IMG/VR virus record: IMGVR_UViG_3300027736_000020
Location: 1 to 64,000 of that record
Origin: a virus
Direction: 5' to 3' (one strand)
DNA length: 64,000 bases
Shown one piece after another: positions 4,488 through 19,831 of the stretch; position 1 is the first letter of the stretch, and every line of letters starts with the position of its first letter. The translations under genes were made by a program, and so were the position numbers. Under the pieces are notes generated by a model. It had not been told where the DNA came from. It worked only from the letters and a program-made list of their open reading frames with translations, and did no database searches.

Positions 4488-5278
4488 AATTGGCAACATC
4501 GGTGTTGGAGTTCGGTGAACTCCGTGGTGACCGGACAGGTACAGGCACGTACTCGCTGTTTTCTCCGGGTGAGCTTCGGTATTCGCTTCGCAATGGGTTT
4601 CCGATTGTCACGACCAAGCGGATTGCATGGAGGTTCGTGGTTACGGAGCTTCTGTGGTTCCTGCGTGGGGATACCAATGTCACGTGGCTTCAGAACCAAG
4701 GAGTGGATATCTGGGATGAATGGGCGGATGATGAGGGAAATCTCGGGCCGGTCTATGGCAAGCAGTGGCGTTCATGGGAGAATTACGAGGGCGGCACGGT
4801 TGATCAGATCAGCCGGGTGATCCGCAGCATCCGGGAGAACCCGGAGAGCCGAAGGCACATCGTCAGCGCATGGAATGTGGGGCAGTTGCATGAGATGGCC
4901 CTTCCTCCCTGCCATCTGCTTTTCCAGTTTCATGTGTCGGAGAAAAGCGTGCTGCATGTGAAGGTGACCCAGCGGAGTGCGGATGTCTTCCTTGGTCTTC
5001 CGTTCAATATCTCTTCCTATGCCTTGCTGCTTTCCATTGTGGCACGGTTATGCGATCTGATGCCCGGTGACGTGATCATGTCCCTTGGTGATGCGCATGT
5101 CTATCTCACTCATGTCCCGCAAATGCGGGAGCAGATCGGGCGGGCAAGCAGGGTATTGCCCGAGTTGGTGTTGCCAACGTTCCACTCGCTTGATGAGCTT
5201 GTGGACATTGATCCCAAGGAATTCCAGTTGAAAGGATATGAGCCATGGCCGAGTCTCAAGGCAAAAATCGCCGTGTAG
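4472..5278 (+). CDS. thyA: thymidylate synthase (ThyA type)
   Basis: Folate-dependent thymidylate synthase, which methylates dUMP to dTMP using methylene-tetrahydrofolate. It has 268 residues, close to the 264 of E. coli ThyA and collinear with it. Visible signatures are DRTGTGTYSLF (phosphate-binding Arg), LLWFLRGDTN, WDEWAD, LGPVYGKQWR, SRRHIVSAWNVG, the nucleophile in LPPCH (Cys147), QRSADVFLGLPFNI and GDAHVYLTH. A longer in-frame TTG start exists upstream, but the ATG beginning MDTYLKLATSVLEFG matches the family N-terminus. It overlaps the upstream small membrane gene by 16 bases and the next gene by 34. The dihydrofolate it produces can be recycled by the phage DHFR gene downstream. Confidence 0.97.
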   Translation: MDTYLKLATSVLEFGELRGDRTGTGTYSLFSPGELRYSLRNGFPIVTTKRIAWRFVVTELLWFLRGDTNVTWLQNQGVDIWDEWADDEGNLGPVYGKQWRSWENYEGGTVDQISRVIRSIRENPESRRHIVSAWNVGQLHEMALPPCHLLFQFHVSEKSVLHVKVTQRSADVFLGLPFNISSYALLLSIVARLCDLMPGDVIMSLGDAHVYLTHVPQMREQIGRASRVLPELVLPTFHSLDELVDIDPKEFQLKGYEPWPSLKAKIAV

Positions 5279-6615
5279 CATGGTTCGAGAACTCCGTGCA
5301 TCCTTTGTTACGGAAAAGTGAAGATGAACCTTCGGATCCAGAGATCGGACGTTTCGTGGATCCTCCAAAACGCTTTGTCCCAGATCCGATTACGTATACT
5401 GGGTCAGATGAGGATTATCATGGGCCCGGAAGTAATTGGTTTTCTCAAACGTACGGAAATCCCAGACTTCTCGGTCACGAGGGAGCCAATGTACAGATGT
5501 ATGATGAGCCAAACACACTCGGAGGTGCATCGGTGGTCAAATGGGGAGGCCCACACTGGCCTTTTCGTCATACTACACCAACGGATGGGGTGAAAACGTA
5601 TGAGAATGGCAGGCAAGTCGGAGTGGTGAGCGTCAGTGACCGCAGCAGTGGTCCTTTCAGACAGGCGCAAGTTATTGATCCTCCGGGCGACTTGAAGCGC
5701 GAAGCATCGATTACGGCAGGCCTTGGTGCTCTCGGCCTTGCGCCACAGGTGCTTGGATATTATCCAGATGCTGCTAAGGCCCCATCGAGGTTTGCATTCG
5801 AACGCACAGACGACTACGGCGAGCGAATGTATGGCGATTACCTTGGTAATCAAGCACTCCACACCACACACGCGGGAAATGATGGATTCCGATCCGTTGC
5901 AAAATGGCACAATTGGGATCATTCGGATCCCGAGCAGCATGTGAATGATCTGATTTCCTTGTGGCAATCGGGACTCACGTCGATGCAAAGAATGCATCAG
6001 GCAGGATATGGACATGGAAATCTTTTGGAATTCAAGGATGACCATATCTGGCATAATCCCGAATCGAATGAAGTGCGATTTACCGACTTCGGAGGTAACG
6101 ATAGTTTTGGTCCAAATGATCCCTTTCATCAGAACAGCAGTTGGGGTAAACCCGAAATTGTGGAAAATGGCAAGAAAATGGTACGCCTTCGTGACATGAG
6201 TGGACTGACGAATACCATATTTGGACTGATGACGTTTGGTCGTCAACCCGAAAGAATGAAGCAGTTTGAAGATCAGGCTCGTCGCGAACAGGGAATCAGT
6301 GCCAGCAATATTGTCACGCAATCGGCAAAGAAACAGGCAAGGCAGGAGTTTCTTGAAAACCCTGAAGAGTTTTACGAAACCATGTTGAAGCCGCAAGGAT
6401 ATGGGACAAAAGATCCTGAAAAATTCAAAAAATTCATGGAGGCTCTTCGGTCCTCCATGCTTGATCCAACGGTACTGCAAAGTCCCTTTTCATTAGGAAA
6501 TATTGATTATGACACGTATGTTAAACATGTGCGGAATAGTGTGTCTGAGTTATCACAAGCAAGAAAAAGCATGAAAAAGAGCTGGTTCAGTCTTTCTGTA
6601 CTTGGAAAGAGATAA
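5245..6615 (+). CDS. kinase-like (possibly pseudokinase) protein with WF terminal motifs
   Basis: 456 residues. The middle looks like a protein-kinase/aminoglycoside-phosphotransferase fold. KREASITAGLGALGLAPQVL resembles the alpha-C region, FAFERTDDYGERM the hinge, MHQAGYGHGNLLEF the catalytic loop (H257-G-N259) and VRFTDFGGND the DFG metal site (D281). The usual catalytic Asp of HxD is Asn259, and the expected Asn a few residues on is Lys, so catalysis is doubtful. The N-terminus AWFENSVHPLLRKSED is nearly shared with the 1529-residue protein at 7141. The C-terminus KKSWFSLSVLGKR resembles that of the protein ending at 13798. AAAGGA precedes the ATG, which lies within the end of thyA. The stop overlaps the next start by one base (TAATG). 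It may be virion-associated, which is inference. Confidence 0.6.
   Translation: MAESQGKNRRVAWFENSVHPLLRKSEDEPSDPEIGRFVDPPKRFVPDPITYTGSDEDYHGPGSNWFSQTYGNPRLLGHEGANVQMYDEPNTLGGASVVKWGGPHWPFRHTTPTDGVKTYENGRQVGVVSVSDRSSGPFRQAQVIDPPGDLKREASITAGLGALGLAPQVLGYYPDAAKAPSRFAFERTDDYGERMYGDYLGNQALHTTHAGNDGFRSVAKWHNWDHSDPEQHVNDLISLWQSGLTSMQRMHQAGYGHGNLLEFKDDHIWHNPESNEVRFTDFGGNDSFGPNDPFHQNSSWGKPEIVENGKKMVRLRDMSGLTNTIFGLMTFGRQPERMKQFEDQARREQGISASNIVTQSAKKQARQEFLENPEEFYETMLKPQGYGTKDPEKFKKFMEALRSSMLDPTVLQSPFSLGNIDYDTYVKHVRNSVSELSQARKSMKKSWFSLSVLGKR
5608..5632 (+). repeat. diverged copy of the left-end 25-bp repeat inside a coding gene
   Basis: Fifteen bases, GGCAGGCAAGTCGGA, are identical to 571-585 in the tandem array, and the following bases (gTGGTGAgCG) match the next part of the repeat with a one-base deletion and one substitution. 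It lies within the kinase-like gene. It could be chance or a secondary binding site. Confidence 0.4.
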
Positions 6616-6992
6616 TGAAAAAACTACTGATGTTCTTTGCCATGATTACGCTGACATTGGTGGTGGTCACCGCAACGGTCAGGATTTTGTCTCACATTGA
6701 TGTGCAGGCACGCGCAACAGAGGATGTGCAATCCGAGTTGGTCCGAATCAAGGAACAGCAACAGTTCCTGTTCGCCTCGTTTTGCAATGAAACCAACATG
6801 CGGGCAAGGAAACCACAGGAACTCAGTTATGCCGAGTGCATGGATTATGCACGCAATACCTACGTGGAAATGAAAAAGGTTCCGACACCGACGGTATTGG
6901 AATACGCGACAACCCGCAGGGGACTTGGCAAACCGGAACCTACTCCTTGCAGTGGTGAATTGCCATGCGGAACCAAGAAACTTGCTTCATGA
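6615..6992 (+). CDS. small protein with an N-terminal membrane anchor
   Basis: 125 residues with no recognised family. MKK is followed by a hydrophobic stretch (about residues 4-24, LLMFFAMITLTLVVV), which reads as a signal anchor or single transmembrane helix with the rest outside. The following region is charged (SELVRIKEQQQFLF) and could be coiled. Four cysteines lie in the external part, two of them near the C-terminus (PCSGELPCG). Type II topology with a short charged ectodomain would fit an inner-membrane spanin, but the lysis genes lie elsewhere, so I do not assign it. The start overlaps the previous stop by one base. Confidence 0.65.
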   Translation: MKKLLMFFAMITLTLVVVTATVRILSHIDVQARATEDVQSELVRIKEQQQFLFASFCNETNMRARKPQELSYAECMDYARNTYVEMKKVPTPTVLEYATTRRGLGKPEPTPCSGELPCGTKKLAS

Positions 6993-7087
6993 TGAAGCCT
7001 GTTCATTTCCTTGTCATTGGCTGCATGTATCTTTTGGCATCATTGCTCATGCATGCATTGTTTTCATCAATAGCCTTTTCCATTTGA
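6989..7087 (+). CDS. possible 32-residue hydrophobic peptide
   Basis: An ATGATGAAG start overlaps the stop of the preceding membrane-protein gene (ATGA arrangement). It encodes about 32 residues, almost all hydrophobic, beginning MMKPVHFLVIGC, where VIGC resembles a lipobox. The part after the Cys is also hydrophobic, unlike a normal outer-membrane spanin. It has no independent ribosome site and may be read only by coupling. It is possibly real but weakly supported. Confidence 0.25.
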   Translation: MMKPVHFLVIGCMYLLASLLMHALFSSIAFSI

Positions 7088-7098
7088 TAATCATATTG

Positions 7099-7104
7099 TA
7101 TACT
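7099..7104 (+). promoter_or_regulatory. putative -10 promoter of the 1529-residue protein gene
   Basis: TATACT lies 42 bases before the ATG in the 148-base gap following the small membrane gene. No clear -35 is seen. Confidence 0.35.
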
Positions 7105-7140
7105 TGTTCTTGAGGATACATTTCCAAAAGGACAACAACT

Positions 7141-10100
7141 ATGCCATGGTTTGATAAAAGCATACATCCTGATTTTCGCAAAAGCGAAGACCGTGCCAAT
7201 CAGAAGGAAGATCGTGGCCCCGCAACTCCGGGTGACAGGATCAAGCAGGCACTGACCACTCCGCAATCCGCTGAGGATGCCGCTGCCATGAGGGAACGCA
7301 TTCAGTCTGGAATGGCTGGTGCAGGATCGGTGCTTGGCGGAGGGTTGCAGGTAGCAAGAACCGCGGCAACCATTGGCGGACATGTCACCGCAGGCGTTGG
7401 AGCTGCGGCAAAACAGGCAGTGAGGGAAGTCACCTCCCTTCCCGTTGTGCAGCAAACCGCTGCAACTCTTGGCCAAGAAGCGGGTAGACGCATCGTTGAC
7501 GCGGCAGGACGTGTTGGAGCCAAGCGTGTGACCAGAGGTGGATTGCTCGGCATCACTGCCGGACGACAATTTGCTGAATCATTCCCAAAGGGCTCCTCGA
7601 TTGATGGAGCAGAACCGTCTGCGGCTTCAGCACCAGAAGTTGCGTCATCAGCACCAGAAGTTGCGTCATCAGCACCAGAAGTTGCGTCATCCCGTGAACC
7701 GGGTGTTCTTGACGTGTTGCTTGCCCGGGTGCAAAACGCAACAGCCAAGCCCTTTGCCAGACGACAAAGTGGCTCCCTTGCGCGGCAAGCCGTGACGGGT
7801 GATGCTGCTCCGGATGCTGCTCCGGATGCTGCTTCGGAAGGTGATTCGTATGGTACGCGAGTAGCAAGTGTGTACAACAATGCCGTTGGGGCATTGACGG
7901 ACTATCTGCTGAATCAGTTCAGGCGCTCGAAAAGACAAGCCGCAACAGATGTGGGAACAGTGAGAGCACTTGGCCCCATGAATGTCGGCAGGGCAGTCAA
8001 GGATGCGGTAACGGGTCATGTCAAGGAAGCCGTTGGAGAGCTGGGAGAAAACGTTGCGCTTTCTGCCCTTGAAACCGTCGTGGGTCCTGAAGAACAGGTA
8101 CTTGAGGAGGATCTTGCAGGATTCCATGCACAATATCCTCAGTTCCTCAATCAGCATGAACATCTTGAAGTGCTTCGTCATTCTCCGGAAGAAGCTTGGG
8201 AAAAGGGTGTCAGCCAGTATGTCCGCAATCCCCATACCGGAAGAATGGGAAAGATATACAGGATTTCTGATCATCCCGATCAGGAAGATGTCGGAGGAAT
8301 TCTTGAAGGAACCTTTGTTCCGCATGCTAATTTCGAGAATGACACAGATTCATCGCACTATCATGCTTTTTTGGGTGAATCCGTTCGCACCGGGCTTGCC
8401 GATGACGATGAACCTCCATCGTACGATCCCGGACCTGCGGAAAAAAAGAGTATTCAGGCAAGATATGCACTTGAATGGCTTGATGGACATCCTTCCAATG
8501 ACTGGGTACATCCAGACATCATCAAAGGCGCACGAACAGGAATATCTCCTTTTGGCGCAATTCCCCGTGCGCAATGGGATACGTCAACACGTGGTCCGCT
8601 TGGAGGATCGGGAACAAGCGGATTTGAACATAATGTTGGTGAAGCCCTTGACGCTAGTTATTCAGGAGCTTATGGCAGCGATCCTTATAATGAAGGACCG
8701 TCAATGGAGTTTTCCGGGTTTGATGCTCCCGAACATCATGGTCTGAGTGAAAAAACTATTGCGAGGGCTGCAGGTCCTCATGGATGGACACTTCCGGGTG
8801 TTGGTCATGGACCACACGATATTGAAGGATACTTGCATACTGCCGCGCATTCTCCGGAAGAACGTGAACGATATCTTGCCGAAGTGATTGAAGCACGCAA
8901 ACGCGGATTTCTTACTCCTGTCCCCACTGCCAAAGGAACCGGAGGTTGGACCGGATATAATCATCAGGATAGACAACCCTTGTATACCCGATCCCATGTC
9001 AAATTGACACGTGGACAAAGACAATTGCTTGCAGAGCAAAAATTGGTTAATCTTGCAGAATCCTTAAAACCTGCAAGGTTTGATCGCGTTGATGAACCGG
9101 GGCGTATGGACGACCTACGGGCATTGCGCAAGTGGCAGAGGCTTCAACGGAATATCGATCCAGTATCTGGTCTTCCCTTGGGTGATTCAGAAGGCGCGTA
9201 TCCAAATTGGGAACCTGATTATCTTGAAGATGGCAATAATGAAGATGATTTCAAGCCGGGAGCGCGTGGTGAAAATTCAATCCTTAGTCACGGAATCTGG
9301 CGAGGATATCCTGATTATGATGGATCTGAAGGTGGACCATATGGGGCACATGATTTATTGACGCGGAACATGCCTAGAGTCATTGCTACGCTTGCCGATG
9401 ACTATGCTGCTCCAGATGGCATGGATCCCGGACAATGGAACACATTGCTTCAAACAGAATATCGATCAAGAGGCGGCGGCCGGGCACATGCAACAGAATA
9501 TCTTGATTTGGGATTTCTCGTAAAGAAAGAGGATAGAGCCAGAGCCAAAACAGCTATTCAATCAATGGAGACAAGAGTACGAGACCTTATCCCTGATCCT
9601 CCCAATGGAGCAAAAAAGGAAAGATCAGGATACGAAACAAACATGGATGCGCGTTCGGTTGTCGATGCAATCAAACGTGCTCATGAAAGTCCAGTTCCAT
9701 TGCCTTCCGGAACACCATTTGATTCCTCTGCGACTCCAAGTGATTCCGAAATAGCGAGACATCGAAAAACTTCTTTTGGCTTAAGAAGGCAAAGCGAAGG
9801 AATTACCGATGCATCTTCACAATTGGCCGATCCGGATCACTATTGGAAAAGAGGACGGTTTCGTCAAACGGATCCGAACGCCTCTTTTGGTTTTTCTGAT
9901 CCTTATAGTGATCATGATGATTCCATTCCTTATGACCGGCAAGTTCCTTATCCTGATTCCGAAGATTCGTATGGTGCATGGAACGAATCAGGCGAATATG
10001 GGCCAAAAAATGATGGTACATACAATCATCTTGGCGATGAATCATTTAAGCAACGCGAGCAAGAAGGAGTACGAATTCAACATGGGCTTTTGCATATACG

Positions 10101-11730
10101 GGGTTTCAATCACGAGCCAACGGATGGCCCTTATTCCGATACGGCAGTATTGATGCGGGCAATGGAAACAGCGCATTTTTCTCGAACCGCTGGTGAATCG
10201 ACAATAGGAGAAGAATCGAGAAATCGTGCGTTTCTTGATGGATTGCGACAGGGCGCAAGCAATCATGAGAGGGATCGTCGTTATCGTGACGATCCGCTAT
10301 CTCAACGTCAATACGCTAATTATCCCAATCCCGGATTCAGCTCAATAGAGCAAATGCAAGAAAGCAATAAAAAATTTGGAGTTTCATTGGCCAGACATGC
10401 TCCGGAAATATTGAGGAATCGGGCACTAGTACTTCGTGCCCGGTTGGCGGAAATGAAAAAACTTGACGAAATGGGAATCGAAACAAGAAACATGTCAGGC
10501 AGGTATGAGAACATTACTCATGCGTTCAATCCTGAAGAATATGTAAGGACACAAAAAGATCTTGCGTCTGTGCAAAACTTGCTTCAACGGTTTCTCTCCC
10601 CTTCAGTGCGAATATTTGGACAACAAACAGCAGAAGGAACAGTGAAATCATTTTTTCATTTGACAAGAACATCCGCGTTGCGCAAATCCATGGAAAGCAA
10701 GATTCGTGATGAGGAAAACCAGCAAAGACGCAAGATTCACCGGGAAGAAATTGCCGAGGAAGAGCATGGCGTCGAGCATGAATATGATCATGGACAAGGA
10801 CGCCATGAACGCAAGATCATGCGTCTGGTAGAAGACAGCAATGTCTGCCCCAAATGCGGATGCAACCCTTGTCGATGCGAGGAGCGCGGAGAGGCGAAAG
10901 TTCTCCGCCGGATGGATCAGTACGAGAAAAAGACCCGAAAGGTCATCGACAAGGAAGAGGACGCACAGAAAAAGCGCATTCACCGAGACCACACTGGTCC
11001 CGGAGTTCCCAAGTTTGTCGCAAAATATGATCATGGAATCAATCAGCACAAAAGAAAACTGAAGAAGGAAATCACTGAATTGCGTAAAGAGGAAAAGGAC
11101 GAAGTGCAAAAGGACATGGACAAGTCATTGCGGAAATTGCAGAAAGCCGTCAACGCAGTGGACATGAGTCCCGATTTGCTTCCTGCCACTCCGGTGAAAC
11201 CTCCTGTCGTGCCAAAGCTTCCCAAGGCTCCTGCAGTTACTCCGGTGATGAAAAGCGTTGAAGCCATGGAAAAATCAAAAAAACACAAGAAAAAGAGTAA
11301 ATGGCCCAGTTTTGACGTGCAATCCAGTCAGATAGCCAGAAGGGAAGGAGTCAGCGAAAAGGCAGCCGACGCAATGCTTGCTTCCCGCGCCCGTAATCAC
11401 GGAACAAAGAAATCATTGACCGGCAATGTTGATGAAAGCGGATTTGTCATTCCCGGAACAGTTCAGCGCAGAAGTGGCGTAGGATTTGCAGATATGGACA
11501 AACGAGCCAGTGAAATCAAGGCTCGCGCGAATGAGGCGCGTGTCCGCGCTGCGGCTGATGCGGCGGCAGCAACTCCTGTCGTTCCAAGTGGCCCACGAAT
11601 CAGATACGGCGATCCGATTACTGAAACGATTGCCAAAGTACGAGGAAGACAGGCAGCGAGGCAAGCTGGCGGAACATTTGCAGACAGGGACATCAGGGTG
11701 TACCGTCCAGCAAAAAAGAAGGGCACGTAA
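7141..11730 (+). CDS. large probable virion/internal protein, 1529 residues
   Basis: No family is recognised. The N-terminus MPWFDKSIHPDFRKSED nearly repeats that of the kinase-like protein. Residues 40-230 are Ala/Gly/Val-rich with a helical, partly amphipathic look (AGAGSVLGGGLQVARTAAT), followed by the low-complexity repeats APEVASS x3 and DAAP. The middle (about 300-1100) is acidic and rich in Asp, Gly, Pro and Tyr without evident repeats. The C-terminal third is highly charged and helical. It holds a Cys cluster, CPKCGCNPCRC (1236-1246), that could bind zinc, flanked by two related blocks containing YDHG followed by H(E/K)RK. The tail is Lys/Arg-rich (KKHKKKSK), suggesting nucleic-acid contact. 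Size and composition suggest an internal or ejected virion protein. A good ribosome site (AAAGGA) precedes the ATG. Confidence 0.6.
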   Translation: MPWFDKSIHPDFRKSEDRANQKEDRGPATPGDRIKQALTTPQSAEDAAAMRERIQSGMAGAGSVLGGGLQVARTAATIGGHVTAGVGAAAKQAVREVTSLPVVQQTAATLGQEAGRRIVDAAGRVGAKRVTRGGLLGITAGRQFAESFPKGSSIDGAEPSAASAPEVASSAPEVASSAPEVASSREPGVLDVLLARVQNATAKPFARRQSGSLARQAVTGDAAPDAAPDAASEGDSYGTRVASVYNNAVGALTDYLLNQFRRSKRQAATDVGTVRALGPMNVGRAVKDAVTGHVKEAVGELGENVALSALETVVGPEEQVLEEDLAGFHAQYPQFLNQHEHLEVLRHSPEEAWEKGVSQYVRNPHTGRMGKIYRISDHPDQEDVGGILEGTFVPHANFENDTDSSHYHAFLGESVRTGLADDDEPPSYDPGPAEKKSIQARYALEWLDGHPSNDWVHPDIIKGARTGISPFGAIPRAQWDTSTRGPLGGSGTSGFEHNVGEALDASYSGAYGSDPYNEGPSMEFSGFDAPEHHGLSEKTIARAAGPHGWTLPGVGHGPHDIEGYLHTAAHSPEERERYLAEVIEARKRGFLTPVPTAKGTGGWTGYNHQDRQPLYTRSHVKLTRGQRQLLAEQKLVNLAESLKPARFDRVDEPGRMDDLRALRKWQRLQRNIDPVSGLPLGDSEGAYPNWEPDYLEDGNNEDDFKPGARGENSILSHGIWRGYPDYDGSEGGPYGAHDLLTRNMPRVIATLADDYAAPDGMDPGQWNTLLQTEYRSRGGGRAHATEYLDLGFLVKKEDRARAKTAIQSMETRVRDLIPDPPNGAKKERSGYETNMDARSVVDAIKRAHESPVPLPSGTPFDSSATPSDSEIARHRKTSFGLRRQSEGITDASSQLADPDHYWKRGRFRQTDPNASFGFSDPYSDHDDSIPYDRQVPYPDSEDSYGAWNESGEYGPKNDGTYNHLGDESFKQREQEGVRIQHGLLHIRGFNHEPTDGPYSDTAVLMRAMETAHFSRTAGESTIGEESRNRAFLDGLRQGASNHERDRRYRDDPLSQRQYANYPNPGFSSIEQMQESNKKFGVSLARHAPEILRNRALVLRARLAEMKKLDEMGIETRNMSGRYENITHAFNPEEYVRTQKDLASVQNLLQRFLSPSVRIFGQQTAEGTVKSFFHLTRTSALRKSMESKIRDEENQQRRKIHREEIAEEEHGVEHEYDHGQGRHERKIMRLVEDSNVCPKCGCNPCRCEERGEAKVLRRMDQYEKKTRKVIDKEEDAQKKRIHRDHTGPGVPKFVAKYDHGINQHKRKLKKEITELRKEEKDEVQKDMDKSLRKLQKAVNAVDMSPDLLPATPVKPPVVPKLPKAPAVTPVMKSVEAMEKSKKHKKKSKWPSFDVQSSQIARREGVSEKAADAMLASRARNHGTKKSLTGNVDESGFVIPGTVQRRSGVGFADMDKRASEIKARANEARVRAAADAAAATPVVPSGPRIRYGDPITETIAKVRGRQAARQAGGTFADRDIRVYRPAKKKGT
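7630..7692 (+). repeat. three tandem 21-bp coding repeats
   Basis: The 21-base unit starting GCACCAGAAGTTGCGTCATC occurs three times in a row, encoding APEVASS three times in the low-complexity linker of the 1529-residue protein. The near identity of the DNA copies indicates recent slippage. Confidence 0.9.
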
Positions 11731-11736
11731 CAAGGG

Positions 11737-11742
11737 TATACT
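11737..11742 (+). promoter_or_regulatory. putative -10 promoter
   Basis: GGGTATACTGGGGG sits 27 bases upstream of the next start codon. It resembles the box before the polymerase gene (TATACTGGGG at 1041). No -35 is visible. Confidence 0.38.
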
Positions 11743-11763
11743 GGGGGCAGGAGAACTGTCCCC

Positions 11764-12177
11764 ATGAAATTTGACACCGCCGTTGTCGTAATGAAGAAGA
11801 CACCATTGCCGTTGATTTCAATCGAGCCTGTTGCAGTCCCGGTTGTGGAAGAAGTTCCCTACGTTCGCAAGTATTACGATTGCGTGATTCGTTCCCGGCG
11901 CGATGAGCATACACGGGAATGGTGGAAACTCATGGATGATCGGTACATGAAAGAGAAGGATTCGATTCCTTTTCAGATATGGCCAATGATCCGGGGTATC
12001 TCGAATGACTGGAGTGGCCCTTGGCCTTCAGCAGCCGTAGGGGTCACGTATGAGGAGTCTGACATGATCAAGGAATGGGCCAAGGAAACTCCATTGTGGA
12101 CGGTATCCACGCCGAGTCTTTCCTTCATTTACAAGCCACTTTTTGAAGGTGGACCAGTGAGATCTTCCTATAAATGA
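11764..12177 (+). CDS. hypothetical protein, 137 residues
   Basis: Not recognised. It is a soluble, aromatic-rich protein (REWWKLMDDRYM, PFQIWPMIRG, DWSGPWP) with no signal peptide or membrane segment. AGGAG lies about 10 bases before the ATG. A TATACT box precedes it, and another lies just after its stop before the nuclease gene, so it may be its own transcription unit. The conserved-looking Trp clusters suggest a folded domain rather than a spurious frame. Confidence 0.65.
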   Translation: MKFDTAVVVMKKTPLPLISIEPVAVPVVEEVPYVRKYYDCVIRSRRDEHTREWWKLMDDRYMKEKDSIPFQIWPMIRGISNDWSGPWPSAAVGVTYEESDMIKEWAKETPLWTVSTPSLSFIYKPLFEGGPVRSSYK

Positions 12178-12183
12178 TATACT
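12178..12183 (+). promoter_or_regulatory. putative extended -10 promoter of the nuclease-DHFR cluster
   Basis: TGaTATACT starts at the stop of the preceding gene, 36 bases before the nuclease ATG. No -35 is visible. Confidence 0.38.
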
Positions 12184-12213
12184 TTCATGTAATGAAAAGG
12201 AACGGGAAAAGTC

Positions 12214-12621
12214 ATGTATGAATACAAGGTAAACAAATTGCTTGGAGTCATTGATGGAGATACCATTGATGTGCAGATTGATCTTGGATTCGACGTGTCG
12301 TTTACCAGTCGTGTTCGACTGAGTGGCATTGATACGCCCGAAAGTCGCACCACGGACCTCAAGGAAAAGAAATATGGTCTTGAGGCAAAGGAATGGCTCA
12401 AGCATCGTCTTGAGTCTGCCAAGAAGATTGTCATTCGCACCGAAAAACCTGACTCCAGCGAAAAATACGGAAGGATTCTCGGCACGTTGTCGATTGATGA
12501 TGAGCCGCTTTCCTTGAATGAGCAGCTCGTAAAGGCCGGATATGCGTGGGCATATGATGGTGGCACCAAGCACAAGAGCTTTGAAGATCTTGATGAGAAA
12601 AGAAAGGCGGCAGGGAAATGA
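12214..12621 (+). CDS. staphylococcal-nuclease-like (thermonuclease) protein
   Basis: A 135-residue SNase-fold protein, expected to be a calcium-dependent nuclease. GVIDGDTIDV carries the metal-site Asp (D16). RVRLSGIDTPES gives R35, D40, T41 and E43 in the same spacing as the staphylococcal enzyme, and EKYGRILGTL supplies R87. LNEQLVKAGYAWAYDGG completes the family signature. There is no signal peptide, so it acts inside the cell, perhaps on host or phage DNA. The stop overlaps the next start (ATGA). Confidence 0.9.
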   Translation: MYEYKVNKLLGVIDGDTIDVQIDLGFDVSFTSRVRLSGIDTPESRTTDLKEKKYGLEAKEWLKHRLESAKKIVIRTEKPDSSEKYGRILGTLSIDDEPLSLNEQLVKAGYAWAYDGGTKHKSFEDLDEKRKAAGK

Positions 12622-12917
12622 GTTATTCGAATATCAGGAAGTCACTGGAAAGAAATCAGCAGTCCCTTGATACCATGGTTACAGGATTGTTGACGGAGCT
12701 GGTAAAGGGCAAGCGTCGAAAGACAGGAATGGGTCGTCCCAAGGGTGATGGTCATGAGGCAATGAAGGTCAATGGTCCGGTAACGCACGATATTGAGCCC
12801 CAGACTGATGAACTTCTTGACGGTCCTCAAGCCATGGGACTCAATGAATCTGTCACCAAGTCGTTTGGTCGCACGAAGCGTGCACCCAAGTGGTTTGAGG
12901 ACACTGTCCTGTATTAG
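12618..12917 (+). CDS. hypothetical protein with a C-terminal WF motif
   Basis: 99 residues, unrecognised. The N-terminal half is polar and basic (KGKRRKTGMGRPKGDGHE). The C-terminus reads KRAPKWFEDTVLY, which resembles the AWFENSV and PWFDKSI N-terminal motifs of the two large rightward proteins. It is translationally coupled to the nuclease gene by a 4-base overlap. If the WF motif is a binding or sorting tag, this small protein would be a further client. Confidence 0.65.
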   Translation: MSYSNIRKSLERNQQSLDTMVTGLLTELVKGKRRKTGMGRPKGDGHEAMKVNGPVTHDIEPQTDELLDGPQAMGLNESVTKSFGRTKRAPKWFEDTVLY

Positions 12918-12929
12918 AAAGGAAATCCG

Positions 12930-13439
12930 TTGATCGAGATGATCGTTGCTTGCGCTGCAGATAGTCAGCAGCGACTGGTTATTGGAAGGGACAACACGTT
13001 ACCGTGGAACATTCCTGAAGAACTCCGTCGTTTTCGCACTGTCACGTCAGGCCGTGCTGTTGTCATGGGAAGGAAAACCTATGAGAGTTTGCCGCGCAAG
13101 CCACTTCCTAACAGAACGAATATTATTCTCAGTTCCCGGCCAGAGTATCCTGCTCCTGACTGCCTTGTGTACAGCAGTATCGCTGACGTTGTGGCGAAAT
13201 ACGCACGTTCAGAGGAAACCTGTGTGGTCATGGGAGGTCAGGAAATCTACCGGATCTTCTGGCCATTCTGCAATACACTTCATATCTCAAGGATTGACAT
13301 GCTCGTTGATGACGGTGATGCGTTCTTTCCGTTCTCTTGGAATGATGTCGAATTGGAATTCTCTCCCGTTTCTTTCGTGGACCGGAGTTCTCAAGGAATA
13401 CAGTGGAAGGAATACACCTATGAGCGAAACCAGCACTGA
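12930..13439 (+). CDS. folA: dihydrofolate reductase
   Basis: DHFR of 169 residues, reducing dihydrofolate to tetrahydrofolate with NADPH. Motifs in order are LVIGRDNTLPWNIPEELRRF (active-site loop and acidic residue), AVVMGRKTYESLP, NRTNIILSSRP and VVMGGQEIYRIF (the GG of the cofactor site). The start is probably the TTG at 12930. AAGGA lies 6 bases upstream, and MIEMIVACA aligns with the MISLIAALA start of E. coli FolA. The ATG at 12939 would remove the first strand residues. It pairs functionally with ThyA upstream and overlaps the next gene by 20 bases. Confidence 0.95.
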   Translation: MIEMIVACAADSQQRLVIGRDNTLPWNIPEELRRFRTVTSGRAVVMGRKTYESLPRKPLPNRTNIILSSRPEYPAPDCLVYSSIADVVAKYARSEETCVVMGGQEIYRIFWPFCNTLHISRIDMLVDDGDAFFPFSWNDVELEFSPVSFVDRSSQGIQWKEYTYERNQH

Positions 13440-13794
13440 AAAATTTCTCATCAGTCCAAAATACATCCTGCGAAAAATGTTGCAGGAAATCCTTGAGGAC
13501 CATTCCCATTTGATGAAATATCCAAAGGATTGCTCTTGTCTCAATCATGATGGTCCGCATGCCATCTGGCAATCCCAGGATCAGCTCATACGGAATTACC
13601 GTTCCATACTCAAGATCATCGACACAGTGGATATTCCACAGGAATTTTATGGAACAATTGCTGATATCATTGCATTTGGCGAGGCAGAAAGACAGCGTCA
13701 ATCAATCCTGATCAAGGATTTGAAATTGTATGCCAATGATTTCATGCCAAAAAAAAGGCAGGAAACCATGCGCCGACAAAAAGTTAGCGAATGA
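13420..13794 (+). CDS. hypothetical protein, 124 residues, last rightward gene
   Basis: Not recognised. MSETSTEKFLISPKYILRKM begins inside the DHFR gene. A longer in-frame ORF (from 12946) overlaps DHFR almost entirely, so the ATG at 13420 is preferred. The protein is mostly helical with a charged tail (KKRQETMRRQKVSE). It contains CSCLNHDGPH, a possible metal-binding patch with two Cys and two His. The stop lies three bases from the stop of the converging leftward gene, and no terminator hairpin is visible at the junction. Confidence 0.65.
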   Translation: MSETSTEKFLISPKYILRKMLQEILEDHSHLMKYPKDCSCLNHDGPHAIWQSQDQLIRNYRSILKIIDTVDIPQEFYGTIADIIAFGEAERQRQSILIKDLKLYANDFMPKKRQETMRRQKVSE

Positions 13795-13797
13795 TGA

Positions 13798-16407
13798 TTA
13801 TTCAAATCGCCGGATTGACACACTAAACCAACTTCTTCGGAAATTTTCGTTCCATCTATCTAGCTCCCTCTCCAGATTCACCTCTGGTTCATCAAACAGT
13901 CCTTCCCAAGCTTCATATTGACGGTCCCCAGCTGGTTGCGTTGTGTCTATATACGGAGCGGGAGGTTGGGAAGCAACAAACTTTTTCCATTTTTCTACCC
14001 AAGGTCGGAACAATCGATCCCTACGAAGCGGAGTCGTCAGATGCACCTCATCGTCATCTGGGATTGCGATATATGTCAAATTTGGCCCAGTAAATCCCGC
14101 ATTGTACAATGAGTGAAAAACTTGTTGCGTATGATGTGGCGTAACGACTGTTCCGGGTTTTATGTGGATCCATTCAATGTGGGGGTCAACTGGAGGAGGA
14201 ACCGGAGACCGTTGAGGATCAAACGCCATATCAGCTGGCTCAGCATACCACTCGCTCGAAGTTTTTTTCTTACGACTTGAAGCCTCAACAAGCAACTGTC
14301 TATTTTCCCCAAATACACCTCTATATCTGCCACCTAAACCTGCTCTTGAACTTGGACCGCTGACATGAATCATTTTTCCCGTAGGATAATTTTTTTCATC
14401 GTATTGATCAGCGTTGTTATTAAAACGATTACGTGCGTCCTCTCCTCGGCCTTTTTCAAGTCTTTCCATTCCAGCTTTGCTCATTTTCAATCTTGCACTG
14501 ATTGCCTTGGCTTTTCTTCTGGCGTCTGCCTTGCTTGAAGCACCCCACGCCTGAAGCGAAAGCAGCAATCGCGTTGGCTTGCCATGCTCGTCATACTCCG
14601 GCCCCGGAGAATTGCCCATACGCGCGAGGAATGACGCTCGACGTGGGTTATCCCCTGACTTGACCGGAGGCTTCAGGTTGTGGCCCTCAGCCTTCGCAGA
14701 GGCCCTTCCCTTGGCGTTGAGACCACCCTTGGGATTCTGACCTTCCTTCCGTTGCCACGCAGGCGTCTTGTTTGCCTTGGAAAGACGATTGTATATTTCG
14801 TGAAGGGGAATATCGTCATAGAAAGAATTCCTGAGTGGCGCTTCCGGCGGAGGAGCCGCTTGTCCCATGTCCTTCGTTGGGCCTTCTTCAGGCGACATGC
14901 CTCGCCTTTTAGTAATCGTGCTGATATTCGGAGTACGCAGAAAAGCGTCATGAGCAGATTGAATACCGGGATGACCTTCTCCCAATATTGCAGAACTCAA
15001 TGCCATCACGACCGGATTATTCGGCACTTTAGACTTGTACCATTCAAAAAAAGGATGTGTGACCGGCATGGATGGGTTGCGCTTATATGAAGGTTGTCTA
15101 AGATTTTCTATAATATCACGCTGCTCATCTGCAAATGAATCCATTTTTCCAGTTGCATCAAATTCTCTTCCCTGCTCACGCACCCATTGCCGAAAATGAC
15201 GACCAACGCTTAATGCATCTGTTTTTCCCATTGATGCCATCTGTGCAACATGATCGTTTGCACCACGCACAAACTGATCATCAGAAGCTAAGCGTTGATA
15301 CGTTTCGGGCAAATGCTCATTCAAAATGTGAAGCGCCGTAGCTGATGCGATAGCCTGATTATACACTGGACCCAAACTGTGCATGGCATCAGACATAAAG
15401 TTTCTTGTCATCGAACGGTAGCTATCCATTTTTTTGCTTCTGTTGTATTGTCCAACCATTTCCGGGATAAATGCATTGGCTGATTCAGCAGTCTCACCGG
15501 AATCTCCGGTCATTTCTTGCCTTTGCAATTTTTCCCTCATCTCCAAATCTTTCTCGGGAACAACTCTTTCATTCCAATCATCTATTTCTTTTGGACTTGG
15601 TAACAAGCTCATTATCGAAATTCCAAGATTTGCAGGTTTTTCGGCCATAACAAATCTCGGTAATCCGAAACGCGGGTTCCAGAAGTCACGACCATTCGAG
15701 TCGCTCGAACTGTTTACGTCGTTGACAGATGCCTTGGAAAGACGATTATACAAATCATGCAATGATATGCCGTTAAACGCGTCTTGATTTGCAAATGAAT
15801 TTTGAAGGGGTTCAGGATTTGTTACCTCATGTGGAACAGTAAATTGCTCCATTGATTTTGGCAAATCTTCTTCATTACCTTTATCCATTCTTGCATTTGC
15901 CTGATCCTGACTTCCTCCGTCTCTTTCTTGAACCGGCCAATCTTTTTTGCGATTCTTTTCACTAATTAAGGTAGTCGGATCGACACCGCGTTTGTCAGCC
16001 GTTTTGTCTTCGGGATCAAGTTTTTGTTTGGGAACTGGTAGCGTCCATCCTTCTATCCCTCTGGGTTGTCGATCTTTCAAATAGAGAGCATTGTGTTGAT
16101 CGAGCTGTTGCTGCATCAGCATCTGCGCTGTTTCGGCATCCCCTCCTGCAGCATCTAGAAAAATTCTTCTCGCTTCTTCGGTAAAATACCATTCTCCACC
16201 GGGAGCAATAAAATTTTCAGGTGTTGAGCCATTTGAAAAACCATTGTCTGCTGGGCCATACAGAGGTGCTTTTGCGAGTTTATTTTTCTTAAGAAGACTC
16301 AATTGCGATGGAAATGGATTTGATTTCATGATCATGCTCTTTTTTGATTTGGAAAGTTTTGCATATATCTTGCTTAATGACATATCAGCGTACAGGTATT
16401 CTTCCAT
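13798..16407 (-). CDS. portal-linked probable virion protein with three helix repeats and a WF tail
   Basis: About 869 residues. GGAGA precedes two adjacent ATGs and spacing favours the second. Three copies of a helical motif occur, near residues 8-20 (MSLSKIYAKLSKS), about 216-230 (ISLHDLYNRLSKA) and about 532-548 (IPLHEIYNRLSKA). The last two follow an NSF tripeptide. After the third copy comes a basic block (GGLNAKGRASAKAEGHNL, NPRRASFLARMGNSPGPE, LLLSLQAWGASSKADARRKA). I recall this as a conserved phage domain of unknown function (DUF6321-like). The C-terminus is RRSWFSVSIRRFE, like that of the kinase-like protein. It lies directly after the portal gene, where a scaffold, protease or internal protein is often encoded. 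I infer a head-associated, possibly processed protein. Confidence 0.6.
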   Translation of the reverse strand: MEEYLYADMSLSKIYAKLSKSKKSMIMKSNPFPSQLSLLKKNKLAKAPLYGPADNGFSNGSTPENFIAPGGEWYFTEEARRIFLDAAGGDAETAQMLMQQQLDQHNALYLKDRQPRGIEGWTLPVPKQKLDPEDKTADKRGVDPTTLISEKNRKKDWPVQERDGGSQDQANARMDKGNEEDLPKSMEQFTVPHEVTNPEPLQNSFANQDAFNGISLHDLYNRLSKASVNDVNSSSDSNGRDFWNPRFGLPRFVMAEKPANLGISIMSLLPSPKEIDDWNERVVPEKDLEMREKLQRQEMTGDSGETAESANAFIPEMVGQYNRSKKMDSYRSMTRNFMSDAMHSLGPVYNQAIASATALHILNEHLPETYQRLASDDQFVRGANDHVAQMASMGKTDALSVGRHFRQWVREQGREFDATGKMDSFADEQRDIIENLRQPSYKRNPSMPVTHPFFEWYKSKVPNNPVVMALSSAILGEGHPGIQSAHDAFLRTPNISTITKRRGMSPEEGPTKDMGQAAPPPEAPLRNSFYDDIPLHEIYNRLSKANKTPAWQRKEGQNPKGGLNAKGRASAKAEGHNLKPPVKSGDNPRRASFLARMGNSPGPEYDEHGKPTRLLLSLQAWGASSKADARRKAKAISARLKMSKAGMERLEKGRGEDARNRFNNNADQYDEKNYPTGKMIHVSGPSSRAGLGGRYRGVFGENRQLLVEASSRKKKTSSEWYAEPADMAFDPQRSPVPPPVDPHIEWIHIKPGTVVTPHHTQQVFHSLYNAGFTGPNLTYIAIPDDDEVHLTTPLRRDRLFRPWVEKWKKFVASQPPAPYIDTTQPAGDRQYEAWEGLFDEPEVNLERELDRWNENFRRSWFSVSIRRFE

Positions 16408-16416
16408 CATTTTCTC

Positions 16417-18138
16417 CTATCCTTGCGGTGGTTGAGCAGGCGGAGCACCACCCGGAGGCGGAGCACCACCGGGAGGCGGAGCACCACCGGGAGGCGGAGC
16501 ACCACCGGGAGGCGGAGCACCACCGGGAGGCGGAGCACCACCGGGAGGCGGAGCACCACCCGCTGCGGGTGCACCGGGTTGGCCGCCTTGACCGAAGTCT
16601 CCTTGTTCATATCCCTGCTGCTGTTGCGCCATCATTTGCTGTTGCATCTTCATGTTGAGAATTTGCAACCAAATGGGATCTGCAATGGAGAATCCTCCCT
16701 CTTCTTCAGTAATAGGAGGAAGATTGCGACGTGAACGAATCTCGTTCTTGGTGCTCCATTGAGATTCGACCTGAAGGTTTCTCAACATGGTTTGTTCATC
16801 TTGAGGGGTAATTCCATCAAAAATGAATACCAAATCATCATAATACGGCTCAATTAACGTTCGAGTAAGCCAATCCGCGTTGCTTTCAAGAATTGAATAC
16901 AAACCTTCTTCGTTTATTGTTTCGGAAATTTCTCCAGTAGCATTGCCAGATCCGACAATAAACCCAGAAGGACCACGATCAGAAAGATTCAATCGGCTTG
17001 GATGCATTCCAAAAAATGCACATTTAATAGAAGACATCAAACGGAAAAATTGTTCAAACTGCATGTCATTAGGTGTTGCAGACAAATCAAGAACTTGAGC
17101 TTTCATGTTTTCTGGACCGGGAAGAACTGGCATTTTACTCTTTGGAGTAGCAGGTCCACCTTGACCAAGAATCTGCCGTTCAAATGAAGCCAAGCCTTCT
17201 GATGAATAATCACCAGATACAACAAGCATTCGACTTGGAAATCCCGGCCTGAACATGTCTTTGTTAAAATTGAACATGTTGAGAAGAGCGGAAGTAGCAT
17301 GCAGTGACTGTTCGAGAACTGATGTGCCAAATCCCCATCTGTTCAGCTCTCCGGAAGGGTTTGTCCACTCAACATCTATTTCGTCTTTTGTCCACGCTCC
17401 AACAATTTGACCGTCAACTTCCTGCACATACGCGGCATTGGTAATGTCAATGGTAAGTCCAGTCTTGGAAGACCACTCTTCACTTAACATCATTCGAGCG
17501 ACACGTTCGTTGGTGATTCCTCGCTTGGTCATCCATGGCATCAACACATAGAGGACAGGCAATACGGTGTCTCCGGGAATCAGATACCAATCTTTTACGC
17601 GTCCTTTGTCATCTTTTTTCAATACCATTGCGCGACGATCAATGATCAATTCTTCTTGTACGGCAATTGTCAGAAAATCCCTGAATGTCTTGTGATACAC
17701 CTTATGAGGATTTGCAACCAATTGCTCCATTTCATTGCAGCGTCTCGAAATTTCTGGCGTATTAGAATCAAAATTTGGATCATCAAAACGTCTGTGCACT
17801 ACTCTCCAGCCACGTTGCTTGCCGGGAACAATAACTTTTCTTGATAAACCTTTTGTGTCTTCAATTCTTCTGGCAATTATTGCCGCATCAATAAGACTTT
17901 CCCGTGCTACTTGACGAAGCAGTCCATATGGAGGTGTATCCATCGGTTTGCGAAGTGCGCCAGAAATGGTTGCCATTTGAGAAACCGAAGGTCCATAATT
18001 TGAAAACCATTGACCTCTGCGCCGTTCTTCTTCTTTTTTCATGTCCTCAACATTGGATTTGCTAAAGACTTCTTTAGGGTCCAATTGCGTTGGCGTTGGG
18101 GCAATGGCCCTTCCGTACATGTCAACAAGCATTGTCAT
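16417..18138 (-). CDS. portal protein
   Basis: 573 residues, directly downstream of the terminase large subunit gene. The body has portal-like features: a helical N-terminal region, a central KDDKGRVKDWYLIPGDTVLP segment, SGELNRWGFGTSVLEQSL, and a long helix leading to IEPYYDDLVFIFDG with TKNEIRSRRNLPPIT. That combination is typical of phage portal proteins, which form the dodecameric DNA gate in the head vertex. The C-terminus is Gln-rich (QQQMMAQQQQ) and ends in seven GGAPP(P/A) repeats, an extended disordered tail unusual for a portal. GGGAGA precedes the ATG. Confidence 0.85.
   Translation of the reverse strand: MTMLVDMYGRAIAPTPTQLDPKEVFSKSNVEDMKKEEERRRGQWFSNYGPSVSQMATISGALRKPMDTPPYGLLRQVARESLIDAAIIARRIEDTKGLSRKVIVPGKQRGWRVVHRRFDDPNFDSNTPEISRRCNEMEQLVANPHKVYHKTFRDFLTIAVQEELIIDRRAMVLKKDDKGRVKDWYLIPGDTVLPVLYVLMPWMTKRGITNERVARMMLSEEWSSKTGLTIDITNAAYVQEVDGQIVGAWTKDEIDVEWTNPSGELNRWGFGTSVLEQSLHATSALLNMFNFNKDMFRPGFPSRMLVVSGDYSSEGLASFERQILGQGGPATPKSKMPVLPGPENMKAQVLDLSATPNDMQFEQFFRLMSSIKCAFFGMHPSRLNLSDRGPSGFIVGSGNATGEISETINEEGLYSILESNADWLTRTLIEPYYDDLVFIFDGITPQDEQTMLRNLQVESQWSTKNEIRSRRNLPPITEEEGGFSIADPIWLQILNMKMQQQMMAQQQQGYEQGDFGQGGQPGAPAAGGAPPPGGAPPPGGAPPPGGAPPPGGAPPPGGAPPPGGAPPAQPPQG
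16437..16562 (-). repeat. 18-bp tandem repeats encoding a GGAPPP tail
   Basis: Seven consecutive 18-base units encode GGAPPP (the last is GGAPPA) at the portal C-terminus. The copies are nearly identical at the DNA level, indicating recent expansion. Copy number is likely variable between relatives. Confidence 0.95.
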
Positions 18139-18151
18139 TGTATTTCTCCCG

Positions 18152-19831
18152 TTAGATAAGGACTACTTCGTCAAAAGCCCGCCTGCCGTTTCTTGAAACT
18201 TCCAAAGCCATTTCCATCGCATCAAGCATATCATCGTTTTCTGATCGAGGATATGTCATAAGTTGTTCATAAAAATTCCAAAACTCAGGATGAATAACCA
18301 CGGATCTAATTTCATCATAATGAAAACCATATTCTGCATTTGGATCATTCGTAAGTTCATCTCTGGTGATCTCGGATTCCGTGCATTTCCTTAAATATAT
18401 TTTACCCTGTTCAAACAATGTTGACATGCCTTCGATACGAATCTGTTTTCTTTTTCGAGAAAGATGACGAATTTCCCGTATTGGAACCAATGATCGACGC
18501 AACACTTGTTGAATCAATACATGTTGAAATCCATTGCCTTCCACACCATTCATCTGTATTTGATATGATTGATTTTGCATGATAATCCTGTTTACTTGAT
18601 TGGCAACATCAATTTTTTCATTGACAATATCAAAAACAATAATGTCGTTGTCTATTGTTTTTCCTATCATGACAATTGAAAAATAATCGGATTGATCATC
18701 TTTTCCTACTGTCCAATCTACTCCAGTAAAAAAAGTCATTGCTTTTCCCCTGAAATACCATTTCTTGTTTGTTGGTCTATATCCAATGTCATGAGCATCA
18801 TACCACTGCATCCAAGAACTCCTGAATGTTCTTGTCGTGTCATCCCGAGGATCATTCATGTATTCTTTTTGAAAAGCAAGCACATTTTTTGCTTTTAACG
18901 AAGATAATCGCTCCAATGAAAATCGTTCTGGCCACAAAGGCACTTGTATTTTTTGCCCAAATTCATTTTCTTCAGAAGTGATCGCCTGATATCTTCGAGT
19001 GACATACAGATCTGTTCTCTGAAGCATTTTGTTGAGTAATGATCCATAATGCAACACCGTTCCGACAAGAATGATCTGTCCGACTGGAGGCGGTTCGATC
19101 ATCGGCTCAACAGCCGAGTCCCACCAGTTTGCCAGTTTCTCCCTTTGTATCGAGGTGTCTACCAACTCGTCGTTTTCCAAATCGTCGGCAATGACCAGAT
19201 CAGGACGCCTGTGCCCGAACCGCAATCCTCTCAATGGATTGTTTGCCATTCGGGCAAGAACTTTTGCCCTGTCCTCCAGCTCTCCGCTCCACATTCCCCT
19301 TGATTTGTCCCACTTCTTGAATCCAATGACAAACTCCTCGTCTGTCCATTTTTCTTTTTCGCCTCGAACGGAACCATCAATTTCGTCCCAATCCTTGCCA
19401 AGAACAATTCCCCAGTCATTTCTGAGTCGATCATTGCTTTCCAGCTCTTCCTTGATATTCCGAGAATGAGAAGTGGAAATTCGAGCGATGTCGGAAATGA
19501 TAACCACAAAGAATTTTCTTTGTGTTACAAGGGACCAGATAACATAAAGAAAACTTATAAGGGTTGACTTGCTGTGATTTCTTGGCGCAGCCAAGACCAA
19601 CGTGTTAAGGTTCATTTTTCCTTCCCACTCTTTCTCATTCTGATGAGTGGCAAGGTTTATGATGTCTTGATGAAAAGAAGGAGATTTTTGAAACCAGTAT
19701 TTTGGAAAATAAATTCGTCCGAATTCAAATGGATCATCAATTGTTTTTTCTATGCGCCACTTGCGCAATCCGTCTTCAAGGGCAACAGGTGCCGGTATTG
19801 CACTGACAAGCGATGGAGATTCGACAATCAT
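18152..19831 (-). CDS. terL: terminase large subunit
   Basis: The DNA-packaging motor ATPase and nuclease, 559 residues. The ATPase part has a P-loop variant in LAAPRNHSKSTLISFLY (about residue 80-95) and Walker B in RPDLVIADDLEND, followed by the coupling region GQIILVGTVLHYGSLL. The RNase H-like nuclease starts at FFTGVDWTVGKDDQSD, with a further acidic site in SENDDMLDAMEMAL near the C-terminus. The start ATG overlaps the preceding gene by four bases (ATGA), and the portal gene follows 13 bases later. That order (small subunit candidate, TerL, portal) is standard for tailed phages. Confidence 0.95.
   Translation of the reverse strand: MIVESPSLVSAIPAPVALEDGLRKWRIEKTIDDPFEFGRIYFPKYWFQKSPSFHQDIINLATHQNEKEWEGKMNLNTLVLAAPRNHSKSTLISFLYVIWSLVTQRKFFVVIISDIARISTSHSRNIKEELESNDRLRNDWGIVLGKDWDEIDGSVRGEKEKWTDEEFVIGFKKWDKSRGMWSGELEDRAKVLARMANNPLRGLRFGHRRPDLVIADDLENDELVDTSIQREKLANWWDSAVEPMIEPPPVGQIILVGTVLHYGSLLNKMLQRTDLYVTRRYQAITSEENEFGQKIQVPLWPERFSLERLSSLKAKNVLAFQKEYMNDPRDDTTRTFRSSWMQWYDAHDIGYRPTNKKWYFRGKAMTFFTGVDWTVGKDDQSDYFSIVMIGKTIDNDIIVFDIVNEKIDVANQVNRIIMQNQSYQIQMNGVEGNGFQHVLIQQVLRRSLVPIREIRHLSRKRKQIRIEGMSTLFEQGKIYLRKCTESEITRDELTNDPNAEYGFHYDEIRSVVIHPEFWNFYEQLMTYPRSENDDMLDAMEMALEVSRNGRRAFDEVVLI

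Follow-up and report, generated by a model that had tools for sequence, protein, structure and literature searches.

In phage T4 several otherwise unrelated proteins (IPI-IPIII and Alt) share the capsid-targeting sequence, a short terminal peptide which is sufficient for loading foreign proteins, and Alt is processed at both ends (PMC9026906). In phage P1 the first 30 residues of DarB direct the protein to the head, with no consensus seen among the Dar proteins (PMC9024508). Inner-head proteins of SPN3US and phiKZ carry N-terminal propeptides, mostly of about 80 to 160 residues (one is of 20), which are cut off by the prohead protease and have been proposed to act in targeting (PMC5694885). 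The polyvalent proteins of phages and conjugative elements contain kinase, GNAT, ART and other conflict-type domains and are predicted to be packaged and injected (Iyer et al., 2017; PMC5512222).

In this work we analysed the first 64,000 bases (the window) of a 184,088-bp virus contig, where a sequence-only reading had proposed that five chain ends of otherwise unrelated proteins near the portal share a W-F motif. Like the T4 signal, this WF/PFPF tag is a short terminal peptide common to several otherwise unrelated proteins; both phages have a contractile tail and a head maturation protease, and just as Alt is processed at both ends one protein of the window is tagged at both ends. Unlike the T4 signal, the tag is also found at C-termini and in three copies in one protein; it has no evident sequence resemblance to that signal, and we do not claim that it is a member of the T4 family. 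The N-terminal packaging signal of DarB is likewise an analogue, but in the clade studied here there is a consensus common to many unrelated proteins, and the tags, at about 8-15 residues, are far shorter than most SPN3US and phiKZ propeptides. As in polyvalent proteins, conflict-type enzyme domains occur in phage proteins of the clade (PMC5512222, PMC7824862); a shared terminal tag is not described for polyvalent proteins in the parts of PMC5512222 drawn on here, and in most tagged proteins no more than one domain is recognised, with DUF6321 and a possible GNAT-like fold together in the 870-aa protein of the window.

Results

The contig belongs to a contractile-tailed phage, with tail sheath, major head protein and head maturation protease genes between 86.4 and 95.9 kb (Table 1); a gene for a 532-aa protein lies between those of the head protein and the protease. 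The clade was defined by the terminase large subunit, which is 75-79% identical in 17 IMG/VR contigs, the longest of 130 kb. The best match to this terminase among known phages is below 30% identity and hence no close characterised relative was found; searches with the portal, a terminase profile and the GNAT-like domain returned only clade members or distant phages. The clade is one of uncultured large phages. Besides the window, the analysis covered the remainder of the contig and several of the clade contigs.

Table 1. Tag-bearing proteins, tags, reference genes and carriers of a second motif on the 184,088-bp contig.
Position	Strand	Feature	Evidence or remark
5245..6615	+	456-aa protein-kinase-like protein, tagged at both ends	kinase-like via orthologue L046:640-1701
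5281..5325	+	N-terminal tag WFENSVHPLLRKSED of 5245 protein	20.1 bits, PSSM from other phages
6574..6612	+	C-terminal tag KKSWFSLSVLGKR of 5245 protein	11.8 bits, PSSM from other phages
7141..11730	+	1529-aa disorder-prone protein, N-terminally tagged	
7144..7191	+	N-terminal tag PWFDKSIHPDFRKSED of 7141 protein	9.9 bits; AGGA 5' of start
12618..12917	+	99-aa protein ending PKWFEDTVLY, weak candidate	9-10 bits, within noise
12885..12914	+	candidate C-terminal tag PKWFEDTVLY of 12618 protein	individually unsupported
13798..16410	-	870-aa protein, DUF6321, possible GNAT-like domain, C-terminal tag	DUF6321 1.3e-18
13801..13839	-	C-terminal tag RRSWFSVSIRRFE of 13798 protein	17.7 bits
16285..16329	-	PFP-type peptide MKSNPFPSQLSLLKK of 13798 protein	residues 28-42
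16417..18138	-	portal protein	Pfam Phage_portal below its cut-off; PHROG portal families 4e-16
18152..19831	-	terminase large subunit	phrog_38, 1.1e-83
94898..95944		head maturation protease	phrog_1028, 6.6e-26
114430..115110		carrier of [LIVFM][LIVFM]KK[ST]	
115129..122829		carrier of [LIVFM][LIVFM]KK[ST]	
146595..149144	-	849-aa protein, carrier of [LIVFM][LIVFM]KK[ST]	macro (DarG-like) and NADAR domains
151417..153270		carrier of [LIVFM][LIVFM]KK[ST]	
153185..155374		carrier of [LIVFM][LIVFM]KK[ST]	
163777..165039	-	starts MRKID[RK]NPFPFAIWP	ends NKNWFNFAIHQAIKQP (WF tag)
165043..166176	-	starts MRKID[RK]NPFPFAIWP	ends KKSWFTFSIHSALQQRWNKRI (WF tag)

All five peptides of the sequence-only reading are present where it had placed them. 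A loose W[FY]-type regular expression gave nine matches in the open reading frames of the window, of which these five lie no more than 13 residues from a chain end. A position-specific scoring matrix (PSSM) trained solely on sites of other phages was then applied to this genome (151 proteins, 58,331 aa) and returned six sites of at least 14 bits against 0.34 expected (200 shuffles, maximum 2); its best seven matches were all terminal, with terminal residues making up 22% of the total. A scan of 464 clade proteins from seven contigs placed 25 of 26 sites of at least 14 bits at chain ends, the remaining one being in a protein with three tag copies, and since this count includes seeds partly picked by eye the cross-genome matrix is the test to rely on. 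Across 600 clade proteins the expression [WF]F..[SAT][VIM] matched 19 times terminally, compared with 3.3 in shuffles (maximum 10), and 18 times elsewhere, many of the latter being one conserved stretch in the gene upstream of the terminase. The motif is therefore not equally frequent in protein interiors, being enriched at the ends in both the PSSM and the regular-expression scans. In an unguided all-against-all comparison of protein ends in this genome, tag pairs made up most of the top matches once evident paralogues were removed. Strict DNA patterns gave five scattered matches in genome contigs, and no credible match was found when known phages were searched for the tag. That the peptides resemble each other by chance, having been found by scanning for aromatic pairs, would fit the one example in five (12618) that scores within noise; it is contradicted by the cross-genome matrix with its shuffles and by the strict patterns, which among 2.9 million viral contigs matched only two of the clade and one apparent chance contig, and we reject it as extremely improbable.

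Inside the window the tags of the 5245 and 7141 proteins scored 66 against each other in the protein-end comparison, in which the tag alone was common to both, and phmmer found no match between their unrelated bodies. The 5245 gene start overlaps thyA by 34 bases, so that residues 1-11 (MAESQGKNRRV) were left uncounted for tag conservation and ruled out as part of the tag. The kinase-like protein gave a poor structure prediction (mean pLDDT 45.6), and the low-confidence model of its orthologue L046:640-1701 matched mostly kinases in the PDB. One domain of the 13798 protein has a predicted fold that is weakly similar to GNAT acetyltransferases (best E 0.002, TM about 0.34), and the PFP-type peptide of this protein resembles, by inspection only, MKSNPFPVQLKLVKA at the start of L019:5345-5974. 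DUF6321 was dropped as a virion marker, as it also comes up under RecA-like proteins of other phages. No homologue of the 12618 protein was found within the clade. The clearest single case lies outside the window, in the genes at 163777 and 165043, where shared ends stand on unrelated bodies: phmmer aligns the two products over residues 1-18 and about 15 residues at the C-terminal end, and nowhere else.

Relatives with 75-79% terminase identity tag other proteins, with the consensus K-x-S-W-F-x-x-S-[VI]-H-P-A-L-R-K. One contig has MTWFSVSIHPALRKSGG on a phosphoesterase and MPSSSWFSLSIHPALRKAGDG on a kinase-like protein, a second has the tags WFENSVHPGLRK, KKSWFENSVHPALRQAKA and MKKSWFENSVHPALRQEEF, and a third has MKTGFFSHAVWPLTKSEES together with a C-terminal TPFPFRIGAF. 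Reading the sites by eye, the PFPF peptides (NPFPFAIWP) appear to grade into the WF form via FFPFTMYP, FFSFAVYP and WFTFSIHS. WF and PFPF forms are seen to replace each other on orthologues. The replacement is direct for the metallophosphoesterase, which starts with MTWFSVSIHPALRKSGG in L049 and with MSQPFPLQLKYIK...KKSGG in L030 and L037 and is untagged in L082, its catalytic body being conserved despite the swap. It is also seen among proteins sharing modules with 7141, whose C-terminal modules recur in several relatives under different start tags: some start with MKKSWFENSVHP, MPWFEHSLWPH or MTFSPFPFRLEAF and others carry SSPFPFSRLQ. A sister contig (L053, L080-L085) encodes an untagged phosphoesterase and an untagged 13798 homologue, which indicates that these proteins do not depend on the tag. 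The same contig holds two paralogues (G009 86039-87547 and 87576-89864, in L084) that both end in KRKPKGSKF..GSEFMARSF.WGMNV, perhaps another terminal tag.

Miscalled start codons are an unlikely source of most N-terminal tags, because AGGA or GGAG lies upstream of them; Shine-Dalgarno-like sites precede 16 of the 21 starts checked. The 165043, L049:5201 and G003 100800 genes seem to start later than the longest open reading frame, which would bring their tags nearer to the end. Two tags in L049 have 11 of 13 residues in common and 25 of 39 bases, with different codons at eight of the 11 residues that agree, so it seems to be the peptide rather than the DNA that is kept; this suggests selection on the peptide. 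Two tags of adjacent L046 genes, one C-terminal and the other at the N-terminus of the following product, agree at 45 of 51 DNA positions and look recently copied. Such a pair is what would be expected if the peptides were functionless leftovers, at the DNA level, of module shuffling by duplication or recombination of gene ends. Given the codon usage of the L049 tags, and since copying does not explain how WF and PFPF forms come to replace one another, we consider this origin very unlikely.

A transferable terminal tag that unrelated proteins have in common is well supported by its enrichment at chain ends, the swaps on orthologues, the ribosome-binding sites in front of most starts that bear a tag and the different codons of some copies. 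The original proposal of a W-F motif at the ends of unrelated proteins stands and extends beyond the five cases first listed, although the 12618 peptide is too weak to count by itself. Proximity to the portal holds for the 13798 gene, which follows the portal gene on the same strand at a distance of a few bases; it does not hold for the plus-strand genes generally, nor for 163777 and 165043.

Among the proteins that carry the tag are a calcineurin-like phosphoesterase (7e-19), kinase-like proteins (Pfam Pkinase at 7.7e-5 in L046:640-1701, and a second at 0.0088, both under the curated cut-off), one with an HD domain (0.0016, under cut-off) and the DUF6321 protein with its possible, weakly matched GNAT-like domain. 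Order-promoting residues are scarcer in tagged proteins than in the remaining proteins of these phages (median 0.267 versus 0.348, p about 5e-11). In the 464-protein clade scan none of the recognised replication, tail, portal, terminase or capsid proteins had a site of at least 14 bits. The gene directly 3' of the portal is tagged here, in L020/L046 and in L019, and in the relatives L020/L046 and L019 its product has three tag copies. HEAGH in the L046 protein at 6976-7719 was ruled out as a zinc protease site, being part of a tag copy (FFESTILPHEAG...) and reading HEAGRDDH in the L019 homologue. Several other tagged genes lie among metabolic genes (thyA, nuclease, DHFR) or distant from the head genes.

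Some further features of these genomes were recorded. A second N-terminal motif, [LIVFM][LIVFM]KK[ST], spotted post hoc, occurs six times in proteins of this genome, always in the first 45 residues and in five proteins (Table 1). One of these, the 849-aa macro/NADAR protein (L025:6598-9144), is without a WF/PFPF tag and likely acts on ADP-ribose-type signals. A third, helix-like motif (e.g. GISPTEAEQKIAAAQF, LSHDEVIAKLSRAEF, ISLHDLYNRLSKAS) is found at the ends of neighbouring proteins at 156459-163757 and in the interior of the 870-aa protein. A 2222-aa protein with a DprA-like domain is encoded at 107471-114139 (L023), near a 2566-aa protein. A long PPPGGA repeat is present in the C-terminal part of the portal, and a similar proline-glycine array occurs in an opposite-strand reading frame at 5426-6151 of L046.

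Discussion

We think it somewhat better than an even chance that the WF/PFPF tag is a transferable docking peptide for head cargo that works like the T4 capsid-targeting sequence. The tag, roughly [WPF]-F-x-x-[SA]-[VI]-x-P-x-x-[RK]-K, would be a portable dock on unrelated, largely disordered proteins, which carry it at either terminus or at both; several of these proteins have enzyme domains. The tag would bind one common partner in the assembling head, be it scaffold, portal or inner shell, so that the tagged proteins would be enclosed ahead of DNA packaging; the head maturation protease would possibly remove the tags, and the proteins would be injected along with the genome, where they may act early on host proteins or signals. 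By eye, no consistent cleavage motif was seen after the tags, some being followed by RKSED, RKAFE or RKAEE and others by RKSGG or RKAGDG. Capsid targeting, packaging, cleavage, injection and the binding partner are all inferred here, and we favour capsid targeting because of the T4-like layout, the tagged genes directly after the portal in some contigs and the enzyme domains, which are of kinds common in phage proteins for which injection is predicted.

The main rival has the tag docking to a hub outside the virion, such as the sliding clamp, RNA polymerase, the phage replication compartment or a host protein, with the carriers unpackaged and acting during infection. Peptides that bind clamps or polymerases are typically short terminal motifs of unrelated proteins, and tagged genes adjoin those of nucleotide metabolism. 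We nevertheless hold it rather unlikely, as the tag is absent from the recognised replication and recombination proteins of the clade, in three contigs a tagged gene comes immediately after the portal gene, and the polybasic HPALRK consensus is presumably unlike known clamp motifs.

The three-copy tag protein encoded right after the portal and the low-complexity, disorder-prone bodies would also suit structural parts of the prohead core, which the tags would join to each other or to the shell with no delivery of effectors. Enzyme domains in several tagged proteins would be unexpected there, and the tags and their genes vary among close relatives in which the core head genes are conserved, making such a role quite unlikely.

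Head-cargo docking could also be one part of a wider address code, in which a few interchangeable motifs (WF/PFPF, the N-terminal hydrophobic-hydrophobic-KK[ST] motif and a GISxxExxxKLSKA-like helix), at chain ends or inside, would each dock to a head component, and the gain of some ten residues would recruit any effector to the injected cargo. We offer this as a tentative extension, with a chance well short of even.

The replacement of WF by PFPF on orthologues offers a direct route to mapping the binding surface. If the head-cargo reading is true, a second targeting peptide would become available with which to load phage heads with foreign proteins. Function prediction usually fails for uncultured large phages; if the tag does mark head cargo, the injected proteins of such phages would be findable from sequence alone.
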